NCBI GenBank assembly: GCA_024998625.1
Contig: JACOEL010000011.1
Coordinates: 1 to 64,000 of the forward strand
Direction: 5' to 3'
Source of the DNA: Nitrospira sp.
Lineage (GTDB): Bacteria > Nitrospirota > Nitrospiria > Nitrospirales > Nitrospiraceae
DNA length: 64,000 nt
Position 1 is the first letter of the stretch, and the number at the start of each line of letters is the position of its first letter. The notes under the pieces are model-generated. The model made no database searches. It had not been told where the DNA came from and worked only from the letters and a program-made list of their open reading frames with translations. Shown piece after piece: positions 22,079-29,650 of this stretch. Both the position numbers and the translations under genes were made by a program.

Positions 22079-22180
22079 GGTTGCGCTCCTACCGTTTTGC
22101 GCTATCCTTTTCAATAATCACCGATCGCTCCACTCACGGGACCGTCCACAACAAGCCCGGGCGAAGGGTCGTTAGGCATC

Positions 22181-23494
22181 ATGGCAACCGTTCACCCAGG
22201 CACAGCAACATCTGCGTCCGCCATCTCTTCGCCGCTGGATTCGACGCCGGCGGTCGTCTGCCCTTTCTGCCAAACCTTCACCCGTTACGCGCCCGTTGCC
22301 GGCGCCCCCCTGCATCAATGTCCCTGTCCCTCCTGCAACGAAAATCTGTTGATTCTCAACTCGGACGGACAACCAGCCGATGAGGACATGATCGCCCAAT
22401 CGTCAGCCGGCGGGCCTGATGCCACCGACATGTCGCGGCGACTTGTGGGCCTTGCCGTGGCTGTATTGGCCTGCGTCTTGAACTATGCCCTGCTGGCCGG
22501 CATGGCGTCCTGGATGCTCAATCAGATCAAATCGACGCATGATCCCTATGACATCGATGAATTGACGCTCTCCCCGCTCATCTTGAAAGCCAACGGTTGG
22601 ACACCGCTTCACCTCGCAGCAGCACGAGGAGATGTGTCCGAAGTGACATCGCTACTGGAGAACGGGAGCCCGGTTGACCGACACAGTAACAATGGACGAA
22701 CAGCCTTGTTCGAAGCAGCAAAGCGCGGGCAGACACCGGTGGTGACGGTGCTGCTGCAATATGGAGCCAACCCCAACGCGAGGACGAAGCACAACGTGAC
22801 CGCGCTCCTGACGGCAGCTGAGCACGGACATGCTGACACCCTTGCCGCGCTCCTTTCCAACGGCGCCGATATCACTGCGCTGTGCACCTGTGGCGATTCG
22901 GCACTGCACCGGGCCGTACGCAACGGTCATCTGGCTGCCGCTCAAGTCCTGCTGGAGCAGGGCATCGCCCCCAACCAAAAGAGCCATGGAGAGACCGCCC
23001 TTGAGATCGCGCAGCATGACGAGGATCGGGAGCTGATCGAACTGCTGCGCGCGCACGGAGGGAGGGAATTCTCCCAGGCCAAGGCCCATCGTGCCCAAGG
23101 CGAGGCCTTCCAGAAGAAGGGACAGGTCGAGAAGGCGCTCTTCGCGTACGCCGAATCCCTGAACCTGGACCCGGATGATCCGTACGCCTATTTCGACCGC
23201 GGCACCGCGCTGCTCGAAAAGGAGTCTCCCGATGAAGCACTCATCGCCTTTCACGCCGCTATAGACCTCAATTCAACCTTCATTGAGGCCTATAGCGCGG
23301 CGGCCTCCGTACACATCGCACGCCGCCAGTGGGACTTGGCCTTAGCCTTGTGGGACCGATACCTGACACAACGACCGCAGGACGGCCGCGCCCATTTTGA
23401 ACGAGCGATCGTCAGACGGGCAAAGGGAGACAGCAAGGGCTTCCTGCAGGAACTGCAACAGGCCTGCACCTTCGGGCATCGGGCGGCCTGCTGA
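22181..23494 (+). CDS. Zinc-ribbon/TM/ankyrin/TPR protein, 437 aa
   Basis: Domain order: N-terminal zinc knuckles (Cys27, Cys30, then Cys47/49/52); a membrane segment at about 88-112 (VGLAVAVLACVLNYALLAGM); four to five ankyrin repeats at about 125-290, starting GWTPLHLAAARGDVSEVTSL; and a C-terminal TPR block at about 300-425. It is the first of three tightly spaced genes (3- and 5-base gaps) with a DUF898 membrane protein and an M48 protease. The architecture suggests a membrane-anchored protein-interaction hub. No enzymatic residues are visible. Confidence 0.8.
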   Translation: MATVHPGTATSASAISSPLDSTPAVVCPFCQTFTRYAPVAGAPLHQCPCPSCNENLLILNSDGQPADEDMIAQSSAGGPDATDMSRRLVGLAVAVLACVLNYALLAGMASWMLNQIKSTHDPYDIDELTLSPLILKANGWTPLHLAAARGDVSEVTSLLENGSPVDRHSNNGRTALFEAAKRGQTPVVTVLLQYGANPNARTKHNVTALLTAAEHGHADTLAALLSNGADITALCTCGDSALHRAVRNGHLAAAQVLLEQGIAPNQKSHGETALEIAQHDEDRELIELLRAHGGREFSQAKAHRAQGEAFQKKGQVEKALFAYAESLNLDPDDPYAYFDRGTALLEKESPDEALIAFHAAIDLNSTFIEAYSAAASVHIARRQWDLALALWDRYLTQRPQDGRAHFERAIVRRAKGDSKGFLQELQQACTFGHRAAC

Positions 23495-23497
23495 ATC

Positions 23498-24766
23498 ATG
23501 ACCACCACCGACGCGTATACCGTGACCAGCGACCGCACTCCAAGCGTAACCTGCAATCGCTGCCTCGGTCGCTATCAAATTCGCGACGCACGTCGATTGA
23601 CGGACAGATCCCGAAGCACCTGTCCGACTTGCGGTGCACGATTCGCCGTCATAGTCGCCGCGCGCTCTGCAAATCAACGGCATGTGGAGGAACAGATCCC
23701 TTCGCCGGTGTACATCCAGCCTTTGGCATCCGACCCCCCTGAATCCACCTCCTCAATACAACGCGGGTCTTTTCACGGATCCGGCGGCACCTTGCTGGGC
23801 ATGCAGATCGTCAACGTCTGCCTGACCATCGTCACCCTTGGCGCTTACCACTTTTGGGCCAAAGCAAAGATCCGCCGGTACCTGTTCAGTCAAACCGCAT
23901 TCGCAGGAGACCGCTTTGTCTATCGCGGCACCGGAAAAGAACTTTACCAGGGGTTCCTGAATGCGATGGTGGTCTTCGGCATTCCCTATTTTTCGTTAGG
24001 CGCAGCGCATAGCTTTCTGGCCCTCCCGCAATCGGTCGACTTCCTATTACAAGCGATGGCTGCGCTGGTGCTGTTCCTCTATGTCCCGGTCGCCATCGTC
24101 AATGCGCGGCGGTATCGCTGCACGCGCACCTCCTGGCGAGGCATCCGATTCTCGTTTCGAGGACGAACGGTGGACTTCCTGAAGCTCTATTTCAAAGGGT
24201 GGCTCTTCACCCTCCTGACCCTGGGCACCTACTATCCCTATTTCCAGACGCAGCGGCAGGCATTTCTCCACTCCCACACCTATTTCGGCAATCAACGGTT
24301 CCAGTTTACCGGACACGGATCGGGCCTGATGGTGCCCTTTGCCGTCACACTCTTCACCACCTATGCGGTACTGTGCCTGTGCGGCCTCGCCCTGGCCCTC
24401 CAGTTGACGAACGCCGGGCTCACGCTGCTCCTGATTCCCTTCGTGCTCGGTCCGGTGTGGGTGTGGCTACTCGGGCAAAAACAGAAGTACTACTGGGATC
24501 ACACCACGTTCGGCGAGGCACGATTTTCATCCAGCATCACCTGGCAAAAACTGTTCGGCCTCTATCTCGGCAACCTTGCCCTCTTGCTGCTCACGTTGGG
24601 GTGGGCCTGGCCATGGGTGACCGTCCGGAACGCCCGCTTCTTCACCGGCACGCTTTCGTTGCAGGGAGTGACGGATCTCGATCGCGTCCTGCAAGACACC
24701 ATCGAAACATCCGTCACCGGCGAAGGCCTGTCGAACCTGCTCGACACCGGCTTCGATATGGACTAG
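23498..24766 (+). CDS. Zinc-ribbon plus DUF898 (YjgN-like) membrane protein, 422 aa
   Basis: An MJ0042-type zinc ribbon (Cys19, Cys22, Cys42, Cys45) precedes a polytopic DUF898/YjgN membrane domain with the internal repeats 'TLGAYHFWAKAKIRRYLFSQ', 'TLGTYYPYFQTQRQAFLHSH' and 'LLLTLGWAWPWVTVRNARFF', each opening a TM-rich unit. YjgN relatives are of unknown function. The gene starts 3 bases after the ankyrin gene and ends 5 bases before the protease. It is a three-fold internal duplication. Confidence 0.85.
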   Translation: MTTTDAYTVTSDRTPSVTCNRCLGRYQIRDARRLTDRSRSTCPTCGARFAVIVAARSANQRHVEEQIPSPVYIQPLASDPPESTSSIQRGSFHGSGGTLLGMQIVNVCLTIVTLGAYHFWAKAKIRRYLFSQTAFAGDRFVYRGTGKELYQGFLNAMVVFGIPYFSLGAAHSFLALPQSVDFLLQAMAALVLFLYVPVAIVNARRYRCTRTSWRGIRFSFRGRTVDFLKLYFKGWLFTLLTLGTYYPYFQTQRQAFLHSHTYFGNQRFQFTGHGSGLMVPFAVTLFTTYAVLCLCGLALALQLTNAGLTLLLIPFVLGPVWVWLLGQKQKYYWDHTTFGEARFSSSITWQKLFGLYLGNLALLLLTLGWAWPWVTVRNARFFTGTLSLQGVTDLDRVLQDTIETSVTGEGLSNLLDTGFDMD

Positions 24767-24771
24767 CCCTC

Positions 24772-25914
24772 ATGCCCACTGGCCGGAGCGCCCATTATCT
24801 CGACGGTCGCACGGCCACGCGCCATCACGTCACCCTCACAGTCACCCCAGCGGCCCTACACATCGCAATGTCCAACGGCAGTGCCAAACAATGGCCCTAT
24901 GACGAGATCCGCCAGACGCAAGGGACTTATCGCGGCGAACCGGTCCGCCTGGAATTCGGGCCTGAACCAGCCGAAGCTATTGTGATTTCCACAGCCGCGT
25001 TGCTGGATGACATTCACGAGACGGCGCCGACTCTCGCGCGGCACTTCCACAACCCGGCCAGACGAAACGCACGAATCGGTTGGACCCTCTGTGCCGCAGT
25101 GGTAGTTGCCATCATGGCCGTAACCCTCTATCGATGGGGCATCCCCGGTGTCGCTTCTGCCGCCACGCCCTATGTGCCCGTGGCATGGGAAGACTCATTG
25201 GGCCGGCAAGTCGTCGCACACCTTGCACCGGAAACACAGCAGTGTCGCGATCCGGAGCGATTGCGAAAACTCGACCACATCGTGCAAACTCTGGCCGCCA
25301 CGCATCCAGCATCCCCCTATCGAATCACCCTCTCCGTCGTCGATGAGCCGACCGTCAACGCATTCGCCGCACCAGGCGGCCGGGTGGTGATTCTCCGCGG
25401 CCTACTGGAACAGACAGCCAGCCCGGAACAACTGGCCGGAGTGCTCGCACACGAACTCCAACATGTCTATCAACGCCATACGACCAAAGCCATTCTGGAA
25501 CAGACGACCGCCACGTTGCTGTTGAGCGCCGTCTCCGGCGACATGGCCGGTGGGCTCGCCTGGGGACTCGAAGGTGCGCGCGCAATGGGCTCGTTACACT
25601 ACAGCCGTACCCATGAAATGGAGGCCGATATCGAAGCACTTCGTATGATGCAGGCCGCCCGCCTCGATCCCGCCGCCATGATTGCCGCCTACGGAACCAT
25701 GGAGAGGGGAGCCCAAGACCATGCCGCGCCGCCTGATTTTCTCTCTACCCATCCGAACATGGGCGAGCGCCTCGCCACACTCATCGCATTGGCCGGCCCT
25801 CCTCCGTCCGACACCCAGCGGCTCCTCCCTGGAGAAGATTGGAAAGACATACGCTCGCTTTGTCGCATACAGGCCAGCGGGCGTTCCGCCTCAGCCCCTC
25901 CCGAGTTATCTTAA
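24772..25914 (+). CDS. M48 family zinc metalloprotease with N-terminal GRAM-like domain, 380 aa
   Basis: The zinc motif HELQH lies at residues 227-231, with the third ligand in EADIEALRMM (Glu284). These are signatures of the M48 (HtpX/BepA/OMA1) family. A beta-rich N-terminal domain (residues 1-95) and a membrane segment at about 102-122 precede it, so the catalytic domain is probably periplasmic. The signature residues NAFAAPGGRVVILRGLL are those of active members. It completes the zinc-ribbon trio and may process envelope proteins. ATG 24772 follows the DUF898 stop by 5 bases. Confidence 0.88.
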   Translation: MPTGRSAHYLDGRTATRHHVTLTVTPAALHIAMSNGSAKQWPYDEIRQTQGTYRGEPVRLEFGPEPAEAIVISTAALLDDIHETAPTLARHFHNPARRNARIGWTLCAAVVVAIMAVTLYRWGIPGVASAATPYVPVAWEDSLGRQVVAHLAPETQQCRDPERLRKLDHIVQTLAATHPASPYRITLSVVDEPTVNAFAAPGGRVVILRGLLEQTASPEQLAGVLAHELQHVYQRHTTKAILEQTTATLLLSAVSGDMAGGLAWGLEGARAMGSLHYSRTHEMEADIEALRMMQAARLDPAAMIAAYGTMERGAQDHAAPPDFLSTHPNMGERLATLIALAGPPPSDTQRLLPGEDWKDIRSLCRIQASGRSASAPPELS

Positions 25915-25930: not shown

Positions 25931-25959
25931 CTCACAGATCCGACGACCTCTGGTATAAT
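25931..25959 (+). promoter_or_regulatory. Sigma-70 promoter of the two-component/HtrA operon
   Basis: CTCACA (25931-25936; 4 of 6 consensus), a 17-bp spacer and TATAAT (25954-25959), 24 bases before the response-regulator start at 25983. Confidence 0.55.
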
Positions 25960-25982: not shown

Positions 25983-26654
25983 ATGCGCGTCCTCGTCATT
26001 GAAGATGAAACCAAGGTCGGCTCCTTCATCAAGCGAGCACTTGAGGAGGAGAGTTATGCGGTCGACCTCTGCGAGGACGGCGCACAAGGCCTCGACATGG
26101 CCTTGAGCGGCAGTTATGACCTCATCATGATCGATCTCATGCTGCCGAGCCTGCCCGGACTGGAAGTGCTCACCCGCCTCCGCAAAGAAAAGATTCAGAC
26201 CCCCGTGCTGATCCTGACGGCGCAATCGAAAGTGGACCAGCGGGTCAAGGGATTGGACGCCGGGGCGGACGATTACCTCACGAAGCCCTTCGCCATCGAT
26301 GAATTACTCGCGCGTGTGCGAGCTCTGTTGCGACGCGGCACGGCGGAAACCTCCGGCACGCTCCAGATCGACGATCTCCTGCTCAATCCGGCCACACGCG
26401 AGGTCACACGCGGCGGACAGCGCATCGATCTGACGGTCAAGGAATATGCGCTGCTGGAATATTTCATGCGCCATGCCGGGCGGGTGCTGACTCGTCCCAT
26501 GATTTCCGACCATGTCTGGAATCAGGACTTCGATACTTTCACCAACGTGATCGACGTCTATGTGAACTACTTGCGGAACAAGATCGATCGTGGACGCGCG
26601 AGAAAGTTGATCCATACGATTCGAGGGAGTGGGTACATGCTCAAGGTGGACTGA
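25983..26654 (+). CDS. OmpR/PhoB-family response regulator, 223 aa
   Basis: The receiver domain has the acidic pocket (Glu7-Asp8), phospho-acceptor Asp51 (DLIMIDLMLP) and Lys101 (YLTKPF). The C-terminal winged-helix DNA-binding domain ends with VIDVYVNYLRNKID and HTIRGSGYML. The closest named type is the CusR/QseB subgroup. The histidine kinase overlaps its stop by one base (TGATG), and an HtrA protease follows. It probably controls envelope stress genes, including htrA. Target sites are not identified. Confidence 0.93.
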   Translation: MRVLVIEDETKVGSFIKRALEEESYAVDLCEDGAQGLDMALSGSYDLIMIDLMLPSLPGLEVLTRLRKEKIQTPVLILTAQSKVDQRVKGLDAGADDYLTKPFAIDELLARVRALLRRGTAETSGTLQIDDLLLNPATREVTRGGQRIDLTVKEYALLEYFMRHAGRVLTRPMISDHVWNQDFDTFTNVIDVYVNYLRNKIDRGRARKLIHTIRGSGYMLKVD

Positions 26655-28057
26655 TGCCGCTGCGTGTCCGGCTCACACTCTGGTACGGAACGGCCCTGGC
26701 CCTGATCCTGCTGACCTTTTCCGTGGTGCTCTATACCATCACAGCGCGCGGCCTCCGAGATCAAGTCGATGAGTCGCTGCAAGAAACCGCATCGGCAGCC
26801 GTGCGTTCACTGGAGAAGCGCGGATTTCTCCCCTTGATCGACGAAGATGCGTTGTTGAGCCAATTCCCCGAATTGACTCGCATCGACAAATTCTTCCAGA
26901 TCTTCAGTCCCACCGGCACCATCACCATCCGCTCTCCCAATATCCGGCAGCATGACGTGCCATTGAGCCGTCACGCGCTGGAAGCCGCCTTTACGGGCAG
27001 CACCGTCTTCGAGTCCGCCAGGTATCCCAACGAGCCTCCCCTCCGTCTGGTCTCCGTTCCCATCATCTACCGCGGCTCTCTGCTCTATATCGTGCAAGTC
27101 GGCACGACCCTGGAAGGTGTCGAGGAAACCCTCCGCCGGTTTTTGCTAGTCCTCGTGGTAATGGCGCCGATCGCCCTGGTGGTCTCACTGGTGGGAGGAT
27201 GGTTTCTGGCCGGACGCGCCCTCCGGCCCGTCGATTCCATTACCATCGCAGCGCAACGCATTGCCGCAGGCGACCTCACACAGCGCCTGACTTCAGAACG
27301 TTCCACGGACGAAATCGGACGCTTGACCGACACTTTCAACAACATGATCGCGCGCCTGGAAACCTCCTTCGCGCAAATCCGGCAATTCAGCAGCGATGCC
27401 TCGCATGAACTCCGGACCCCGCTGACCGTCATGAAAGGCGAAAGCGAGCTGGTCCTCCGCCGTCCTCGTCCCGTCGAAGATTACATTGCGGTCCTGGAAA
27501 GCAATCTGGAAGAAATCGACCGGATGTCGCGCATCGTCGAGGAACTCCTCTTCCTCTCGCGGGCGGATCTGGGCCAAGTCAAAACAGAATGTGAGCCGGT
27601 CCGCCTGGAGGCCTTGGTGGAAGATATTCAGCGCCAGGCTTGCCTGCTCGGTCAAGAGCGTGGGGTAGACGTAATCATGGGCACCATTCAACCGGCAACC
27701 GTCCGTGGCGACGAACTCCGGCTGCGGGAACTCATTCTGAACATCGTCGACAATGCCGTGAAATACTCCTACCCACAGGGCACGGTGGATATCGATCTGC
27801 TGGTGGAAGGCCGCACGGCGCGTCTGTCAGTGCGGGACCACGGGATCGGCATCCCCCAGGACGCACACAAACAAATTTTTGACCGGTTCTTCCGCACCGA
27901 CGACGCGCGCGCCCACACGAAAAAGGGAACCGGGCTCGGCCTGGCCATCTGCGCCTGGATTGCCGAGGCGCACCACGGACACATCGACGTCCAGAGCGAA
28001 GTCGGCAAAGGGTCGACCTTCACCATCGTGCTGCCCCTCGCTCCGCCGACTGCTTAA
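26654..28057 (+). CDS. Membrane sensor histidine kinase (HAMP, HisKA, HATPase), 467 aa
   Basis: Two TM segments (about residues 8-30 and 160-185) flank a periplasmic sensor region. The HAMP linker follows, then HisKA with phospho-acceptor His251 in SDASHELRTPLTVMKGE, then the ATPase domain with N box ILNIVDNAVKYS, G1 VRDHGIGIP and G2 GTGLGLAICAWI. Orthodox type, with all catalytic boxes intact. It pairs with the upstream regulator by overlap and precedes an HtrA protease by 114 bases, a CpxRA/CzcS-like arrangement. The stimulus is unknown. Confidence 0.93.
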   Translation: MPLRVRLTLWYGTALALILLTFSVVLYTITARGLRDQVDESLQETASAAVRSLEKRGFLPLIDEDALLSQFPELTRIDKFFQIFSPTGTITIRSPNIRQHDVPLSRHALEAAFTGSTVFESARYPNEPPLRLVSVPIIYRGSLLYIVQVGTTLEGVEETLRRFLLVLVVMAPIALVVSLVGGWFLAGRALRPVDSITIAAQRIAAGDLTQRLTSERSTDEIGRLTDTFNNMIARLETSFAQIRQFSSDASHELRTPLTVMKGESELVLRRPRPVEDYIAVLESNLEEIDRMSRIVEELLFLSRADLGQVKTECEPVRLEALVEDIQRQACLLGQERGVDVIMGTIQPATVRGDELRLRELILNIVDNAVKYSYPQGTVDIDLLVEGRTARLSVRDHGIGIPQDAHKQIFDRFFRTDDARAHTKKGTGLGLAICAWIAEAHHGHIDVQSEVGKGSTFTIVLPLAPPTA

Positions 28058-28171
28058 CAACTTTTAATCCCTCGCTAATTGGTTTCTCATCCACGGTTGC
28101 TACCTTCCAGAGTGTCTGCTGCGGGATCTCTCCCGCGCACACCGATCACCGACTTCAGGAGGAGGAGCCCC

Positions 28172-29650
28172 ATGAAACGACCTACGCAGTCCGTCAGTGC
28201 CATTGCCGGCATCGCCGCCCTCGGTGCTGCCTTGCTATGGAGTTATCTCCCGCTTGCCACCTCACACGCTTCGAATCCGTCACCGGCCGCAGAGGAGCGC
28301 CCAGCCACGATGACGGGTAGCTTGCCCGCGGCCGGATTCGCAGATGTGGCCAAGACGGTCACACCTGCCGTCGTGAACATCACCACGAGCGGCGCAGAAG
28401 AAGCGTCTGATTCCTCACGCCCGCGCGGCCGGATGGAAGACTTTTTCGGATCGCCGTTCGGTCCGCGGCGATTCGGACCTCCGATGGAACCGCGTGAACG
28501 GCGCGGTGGAGGGCAGGGATCGGGCGTGATCGTTACCCCGGACGGGTATGTGCTGACCAACAACCACGTGATTGCAGGAGCGAAAACCGTCACCGTCACA
28601 CTGCCCGACAAACGGGAATTCAAAGGGCGCATCGTCGGCAGCGACCCAAAGAGCGATATCGCCGTGGTCAAGATCGACGGGACTCAGCTTCCAACAATTC
28701 CATGGGGCGACTCCAGCCGCCTCCAGGTCGGCGAATATGTCCTGGCTGTCGGGAACCCGTTTGGCTTGAACTCCACAGTCACCCTGGGCATCGTCAGTGC
28801 CCTTGGTCGCGGACACATGGGGATTACGCAGTATGAAGATTTCATCCAGACGGATGCCGCAATCAATCCAGGCAACAGCGGCGGGGCACTCGTGAACACC
28901 AGAGGGGAGTTGATCGGCATCAACACCGCGATCTTTTCCCAGACCGGCGGGTATCAAGGCGTCGGTTTCGCGGTTCCGACCGGCATGAGCAAGCCGATAT
29001 ATGAGAGCCTGGTCAAGACCGGCAAGGTCGTGCGTGGGTTTCTGGGGGTCGGTATTCAGGATCTGAATCAGGAACTGGCCAAGTCCTTCAATGTCACAGG
29101 GAGCAACGGCGCTATCGTGACGGATGTGAAGGACGACGGCCCTGCAGACAAGGCCGGCCTCAAGCAGGGAGACGTGATCCTGTCCTTTCAGGGAACTCCA
29201 ATCGAAGATGCCGTCACCCTTCAGCGCGCCGTTACAAGAAGCTCGGTCGGCAGCAAGGCGACAGTCACCGTGATGCGAGAGGGTCGTGAAAAGGACCTGA
29301 CCGTCACGATCGGTGAACTGCCGGACAACCCGCAGGTCGCTAAGGCGGAGGCCGGTCCGTCGGAACAGCCGCTGGCCGGACTGGCCGTGCAGGAGTTGGA
29401 CCGGGAAACTGCCCAGGAGCTCGGGATCAAAGGCAACATTCACGGCGTCGTCGTCACGACCGTCGATCCAGAGAGCGACGCGGAACGCGCCGGGTTGATG
29501 CCGGGCGACGTGATCCGGGAGATCAACCGCAAACCAGTCACCTCGATGAAAGATTTCGATCGGGCCGCATCGGACCTCAAGAAGGGGCAAACGGTGTTGG
29601 TGCTGGTGAATCGGAGAGGCGCGTCCCTATACCTCAGCGCCAAGATCTAA
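28172..29650 (+). CDS. Periplasmic HtrA/DegP serine protease, 492 aa
   Basis: Trypsin-like protease with two PDZ domains, for degradation of misfolded envelope proteins. Catalytic triad: His132 (TNNHVIAG), Asp162 (SDIAVVKI) and Ser236 (GNSGGAL). A signal sequence is seen at residues 1-33, and PDZ domains span roughly 295-380 and 395-490. ATG 28172 follows AGGAGGAGG, a strong RBS, and is preferred over an upstream frame without leader. The two-component system lies upstream and is a likely regulator. Confidence 0.93.
   Translation: MKRPTQSVSAIAGIAALGAALLWSYLPLATSHASNPSPAAEERPATMTGSLPAAGFADVAKTVTPAVVNITTSGAEEASDSSRPRGRMEDFFGSPFGPRRFGPPMEPRERRGGGQGSGVIVTPDGYVLTNNHVIAGAKTVTVTLPDKREFKGRIVGSDPKSDIAVVKIDGTQLPTIPWGDSSRLQVGEYVLAVGNPFGLNSTVTLGIVSALGRGHMGITQYEDFIQTDAAINPGNSGGALVNTRGELIGINTAIFSQTGGYQGVGFAVPTGMSKPIYESLVKTGKVVRGFLGVGIQDLNQELAKSFNVTGSNGAIVTDVKDDGPADKAGLKQGDVILSFQGTPIEDAVTLQRAVTRSSVGSKATVTVMREGREKDLTVTIGELPDNPQVAKAEAGPSEQPLAGLAVQELDRETAQELGIKGNIHGVVVTTVDPESDAERAGLMPGDVIREINRKPVTSMKDFDRAASDLKKGQTVLVLVNRRGASLYLSAKI

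Follow-up and report, generated by a model that had tools for sequence, protein, structure and literature searches.

OMA1, a stress-regulated protease of the mitochondrial inner membrane, has its single M48 domain outside that membrane and its N-terminal part inside; it is not known to have a DUF898 partner or a PH-like domain. HtpX, an inner-membrane protein, belongs to the same M48 family. In BepA, which consists of one periplasmic polypeptide, TPRs are fused to the protease (PMC7950410), and substrates are selected by this TPR domain. The motif HPx4R has been described as an active-site plug for BepA, YcaL, LoiP and HtpX, and a BepA mutant in the histidine of this plug appears deregulated (PMC7950410).

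The window considered here, a stretch of 64,000 nucleotides from Nitrospira sp. (phylum Nitrospirota; GCA_024998625.1, contig JACOEL010000011.1), contains three membrane-protein genes on the forward strand, at 22181-23494, 23498-24766 and 24772-25914, for which ATG starts and stops were confirmed. They encode a zinc-ribbon/ankyrin/TPR protein (gene 1), a DUF898 protein (gene 2) and an M48 protease (gene 3), and are separated by 3 bases (23495-23497) and 5 bases (24767-24771), exactly the spacing given in an earlier reading made from the letters of the DNA (the sequence-only reading). That reading proposed that the three form one functional unit, perhaps a membrane quality-control or proteolytic assembly, a proposal that the protease family and the predicted topology fit, although the role itself is deduced. 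The interpretation preferred here, to which we assign a probability of about 0.6, is a quality-control protease of the inner membrane, assisted by a membrane scaffold and, in Nitrospiraceae, by a periplasmic adaptor that can be exchanged; the likely task of the three-gene set is to police cell-envelope proteins. Among open-licence papers, a body of literature outside which most subscription journals lie, neither a function for DUF898, YjgN, COG4269 or DUF7092 nor a paper on the DUF898-M48 pair was found, consistent with the earlier remark that no described system has these parts.

Gene 3 (24772..25914, + strand) was delimited with Pfam, an alignment of 65 proteins and a predicted model (mean pLDDT 81.7) that comprises a seven-strand domain with a C-terminal helix (residues 74-92), a long TM helix and a protease domain. 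The protein belongs to the M48 family (PF01435), with a Peptidase_M48 match of 1.4e-29 (Pfam), an intact HELQH motif (H227, E228, H231) and the Glu ligand E282. The intact HExxH had been seen by the sequence-only reading and is invariant in the 65 aligned partner proteases, as are E282 and the HPx4R plug motif (H327, P328, R333). Residues about 1-93 match DUF7092 (PF23368) with 37.3 bits against a gathering score of 24.5 (4e-9, Pfam), and many PH domains could be aligned with residues 1-93 of the model at Z of about 6.5-7.4 over 81-92 residues, below the caution level of Z 8. The GRAM-like domain that the sequence-only reading had proposed for this protease is thus suggested to be a PH-like fold, its Z of about 7 lying under the same level. 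A single TM helix is predicted at residues about 102-120, where the positive-inside signal is modest. The protein is predicted to comprise a cytosolic PH-like domain, one TM helix and a periplasmic BepA-like domain, a topology that recalls OMA1, where the M48 domain likewise lies outside the inner membrane.

The predicted protease domain aligns best with 3c37, a Geobacter M48 peptidase and the closest solved relative of gene 3 (Z 22.7; profile 3.1e-36), whose solved chain of 253 residues corresponds to gene 3 in the protease domain only, and it aligns with BepA at Z 21.6 over 204 residues. The likeness to BepA includes HExxH, the Glu ligand, HPx4R and the predicted periplasmic location, and TPR repeats occur in both systems. 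Unlike BepA, however, gene 3 combines a predicted PH-like domain with a TM helix and has a near-obligate DUF898 partner, while the TPRs belong to the ankyrin protein, a separate polypeptide, and are restricted to some lineages. Gene 3 also differs from HtpX in having one predicted TM helix with DUF7092 ahead of it. Assignment as BepA itself (NF052400) was rejected, since the protein scores 86.6 bits where 570 are required and contains no TPR, and so was assignment as HtpX at 19.7-28.4 bits against NCBIfam equivalog cut-offs of 245-422.

Gene 2 (23498..24766, + strand), delimited by Pfam and a predicted model, encodes a polytopic membrane protein of the DUF898/YjgN family (PF05987), residues 89-413 matching profile positions 3-335 with 299 bits (4.3e-89, Pfam). 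It is a member of the YjgN/DUF898 family of RefSeq and differs from it by an N-terminal zinc ribbon (C19, C22, C42, C45; a weak Pfam match over residues 16-49). The model (pLDDT 82.5) shows three short and two long helical hairpins with beta hairpins in between; the earlier description of DUF898 as triplicated is approximately right. In the 62 proteins compared, hardly any charge is found at the hairpin tips, and most of the segments that follow a hairpin are rich in K/R, for which reason the charge-free hairpins are predicted to face the cytosol. A profile search of DUF898 against PDB sequences gave no match. With Foldseek and VIA-align no solved fold was found for the membrane part (best Z 4.3), the query being the whole 422-residue model, with which a weak single-domain match could be missed; only a zinc ribbon of the ZitP/GltJ type stood out in the structure search.

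Depending on the lineage, DUF898 is preceded by a zinc ribbon, by GYF_2, by a J-like domain lacking HPD, by an L7/L12-like domain, by acidic repeats or by nothing, so the ribbon is one exchangeable cytosolic module among several. Examples are a protein with the J-like domain lacking the HPD motif (L121 3153-4499) and one whose long N-terminal extension repeats acidic motifs of the 'DDEWAAALAEQ' kind (L044 7018-9648). This variation bears on the idea of a zinc-status or redox switch, in which the ribbons would respond to zinc or oxidants in the cytosol and act as a gate on the zinc protease. Such a switch would suit an operon with two invariant four-cysteine ribbons, but other DUF898 proteins swap or drop the ribbon and yet keep the protease, and most of the sampled relatives have no ribbon. 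Zinc sensing can therefore not be the core function, and we regard the switch as very improbable.

The sequence-only reading had called for a neighbourhood search for DUF898-M48 pairs, and such pairs are found in several phyla. Scanning genome contigs with a DUF898 alignment yielded 80 loci, mainly from Proteobacteria and Desulfobacterota with single ones from Acidobacteria, Myxococcota, Nitrospinota and Neomarinimicrobiota, to which six loci from a plasmid collection were added. An M48 gene with HExxH lies directly 3' of DUF898 in 83 of these 86 sampled loci, often with a 4-base overlap; at two of the other three the contig ends, and at the third the neighbouring M48 homologue has no HExxH. 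This homologue (L066 3686-4600) keeps the rest of the domain, and either an in-frame deletion or an assembly artefact may be involved. DUF7092 is carried by 64 of 65 M48 partners, and in the RefSeq annotation of several plasmids YjgN-family and M48 genes stand side by side. In a survey of 198 Nitrospirota genomes, DUF898 scored over the cut-off in 35, every one of which has the M48 partner (35/35); DUF7092 was detected in 34 of these 35, and in the remaining genome (G177) the adjacent M48 has a sub-threshold DUF7092. A relative from the same order (G047) likewise has a neighbouring M48, at 23% identity. Speaking against the preferred interpretation, E. coli has a DUF898 protein, YjgN, the gene of which presumably stands without a neighbouring M48. 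The next real family among the neighbours of the pair occurs in only 7 of 93 loci, and larger neighbour clusters look like reverse-strand shadow ORFs. Taken together, DUF898 followed by DUF7092-M48 is a near-obligate two-gene module.

The two proteins have also diverged in step. Between genomes of the genus, the distances of DUF898 and those of M48 correlate with r 0.95, and the partial r is 0.71 when five flanking genes are controlled for. Because of the near-obligate adjacency, the co-occurrence in all 35 Nitrospirota genomes with DUF898 and this coupled divergence, the sequence comparisons strongly support DUF898 and M48 as one functional unit. The presence of one protease per DUF898 at nearly every locus, together with a polytopic DUF898 fold that has no PDB match, would also suit a membrane channel or transporter under regulation, paired with a maturation protease that would process DUF898 or a specific partner, in place of general quality control. 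We consider this unlikely; no conserved periplasmic loop of DUF898 is evident for cleavage, and the hairpin tips are short as well as uncharged.

Gene 1 (22181..23494, + strand) was delimited with Pfam, genus orthologues and zinc-ribbon/TM homologues in other Nitrospiraceae. An N-terminal zinc ribbon (C27, C30, C49, C52) and a single predicted TM helix (residues about 88-113) are followed by ankyrin repeats (residues about 136-298) and TPRs (residues about 299-437), both matched by Pfam as the sequence-only reading had described them, with invariant C-terminal cysteines (C429/C437). That reading had further placed N-terminal zinc ribbons on genes 1 and 2; both are present, and their CxxC...CxxC patterns are invariant across 12 genus members. 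When searched with the PADLOC anti-phage models, gene 1 matched ankyrin-containing models, most likely via its ankyrin repeats, and the DUF898 and M48 proteins gave no match.

The ankyrin protein is confined to some Nitrospiraceae, and in other genera of the family zinc-ribbon/TM homologues of gene 1 lie directly upstream of DUF898. Their periplasmic part is ankyrin plus TPR in the own genus and in G240, G241 and G296, all of one clade; Coa1-like in G151, G252, G308 and G237 (in G237 with a match below the Pfam cut-off), at least one of these also giving a SnoaL-like match; and a short tail in G180, G312 and G315, with G270 and G292 similarly short. As to the earlier question whether the ankyrin protein occurs in orthologous loci, the zinc-ribbon/TM part thus recurs within Nitrospiraceae, but the ankyrin/TPR part is swapped or missing. 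The ankyrin/TPR region is a replaceable domain, predicted to be periplasmic, and not a defining part of the unit. Bacterial proteins with a zinc ribbon, a TM helix and Coa1, one of which gives a SnoaL-like match, adjoin an M48 protease at L161 6174-6767, L176 3693-4820 and L180 6219-7232.

Upstream of gene 1, a promoter-like block (22079..22115, + strand) is near-identical in 23 of 23 same-genus sequences, the remaining upstream gap being more variable; we infer from this conservation that the block is a promoter. A consensus scan for promoters did not pick it up. Behind gene 3, a promoter-like site of the downstream response-regulator gene (25931..25959, + strand) has TATAAT in 22 of 22 aligned same-genus sequences; it reads CTCACA-17-TATAAT with 10/12 consensus matches, one such site being found against 1.0 expected by chance, and likely marks the end of the three-gene unit. 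The conserved block before gene 1 and the TATAAT site after gene 3 make it probable that the three genes are transcribed together. The genes next to this site (25983-29650) encode an OmpR-type response regulator, a histidine kinase and a Do/HtrA-type periplasmic protease; this set, syntenic in the genus and with its own conserved promoter-like site, resembles an envelope-stress group adjoining the M48 unit.

Within the genus, 28 other genomes were examined and 27 have the three genes next to one another, in some cases cut by contig ends. Spacing between DUF898 and M48 is 5 bases in all 21 genomes measured, and between gene 1 and DUF898 it is -3, 2 or 3. However, the flanks (glycine dehydrogenase, flavoprotein, response regulator, histidine kinase and Do-type protease) are equally syntenic across the genus, so that adjacency at this level is weak evidence for a unit. 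The sole exception, G017, lacks DUF898 and M48 in its assembly. Its gene 1 (L041 6088-7901) is frameshifted and shortened and is followed by a transposase-like insertion of two ORFs resembling the IS3 family, and the upstream block is still kept at this decayed locus. As the contig stops at the broken gene 1 and the next one starts at the response regulator, joint loss of the unit is only suggestive.

In the Nitrospiraceae examined outside the own genus, the zinc-ribbon/TM gene is present at 12 of 12 loci with a ribbon-bearing DUF898 and absent at 5 of 5 with a ribbon-less one, both features missing together in G108. The DUF898 tree requires two changes to account for this association, in the simplest case a gain and a joint loss, the latter in G108, and the Fisher p of 1.6e-4 therefore overstates it. 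In G237 (L170 5080-8544) the order is M48, zinc-ribbon/Coa1-like gene 1, DUF898 at an unchanged site between the flavoprotein and the response regulator, which indicates that the cluster survived an internal reorder. A competing explanation holds that only DUF898 and M48 form the functional unit and that gene 1 shares their promoter and acts independently. This would explain why no third gene recurs outside Nitrospiraceae, why some Nitrospiraceae have the pair without gene 1, and why gene 1 shows no co-divergence in excess of the flanking genes (partial r 0.21 and 0.24; controls -0.46 to 0.53). It is nevertheless a doubtful, if serious, contender in view of the tie between gene 1 and the ribbon, the retention of the cluster through the G237 reorder and the decay of gene 1 in G017 where the pair is missing from the assembly. 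The recurrence of the ribbon/TM part, the survived reorder and the joint absence in G108 lend moderate support to gene 1 as part of the unit. The proposal of one functional unit is accordingly upheld strongly for DUF898 and M48 and moderately for gene 1, but not for the ankyrin/TPR scaffold as a defining component. Scattered orthologues and unconserved zinc ribbons had been named as what would speak against a unit; the orthologues stand together and the ribbon cysteines are kept.

In the preferred interpretation of a quality-control protease with scaffold and adaptor, the proteins would form a physical complex. The M48 protease would be anchored by its one helix, with the catalytic domain in the periplasm and the PH-like domain in the cytosol, and the HPx4R plug, a motif shared with BepA, would keep it latent. 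DUF898 would be its dedicated membrane partner. The hairpins of DUF898 would enter the membrane from the cytosolic face, the PH-like domain may dock on its cytosolic surface, and its N-terminus would carry the exchangeable cytosolic module (zinc ribbon, GYF_2, J-like, L7/L12-like or none). Gene 1 would serve in Nitrospiraceae as an adaptor, with its cytosolic ribbon next to that of DUF898 and with periplasmic repeats that would pick the substrates, a task that in BepA falls to the TPR domain fused to the protease. A bolder and rather improbable extension is that DUF898 is a new membrane-protein fold whose charge-free hairpins, inserted from the cytosol, thin or deform the bilayer and hand membrane proteins to the periplasmic M48 domain. 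If so, the pair would be a widespread, undescribed, ATP-independent machine for membrane-protein quality control with interchangeable cytosolic adaptors and, in Nitrospiraceae, interchangeable periplasmic ones as well.

The DUF898 (YjgN) family, which has no described function in open-licence papers, almost always travels with one type of M48 protease in several phyla, and this pairing turns a family of unknown role into a testable partner question. The M48 proteases in turn gain a type that is predicted to be membrane-anchored and to bear a PH domain, and the swapped periplasmic domains of gene 1 would offer a natural experiment on the choice of substrate or signal.
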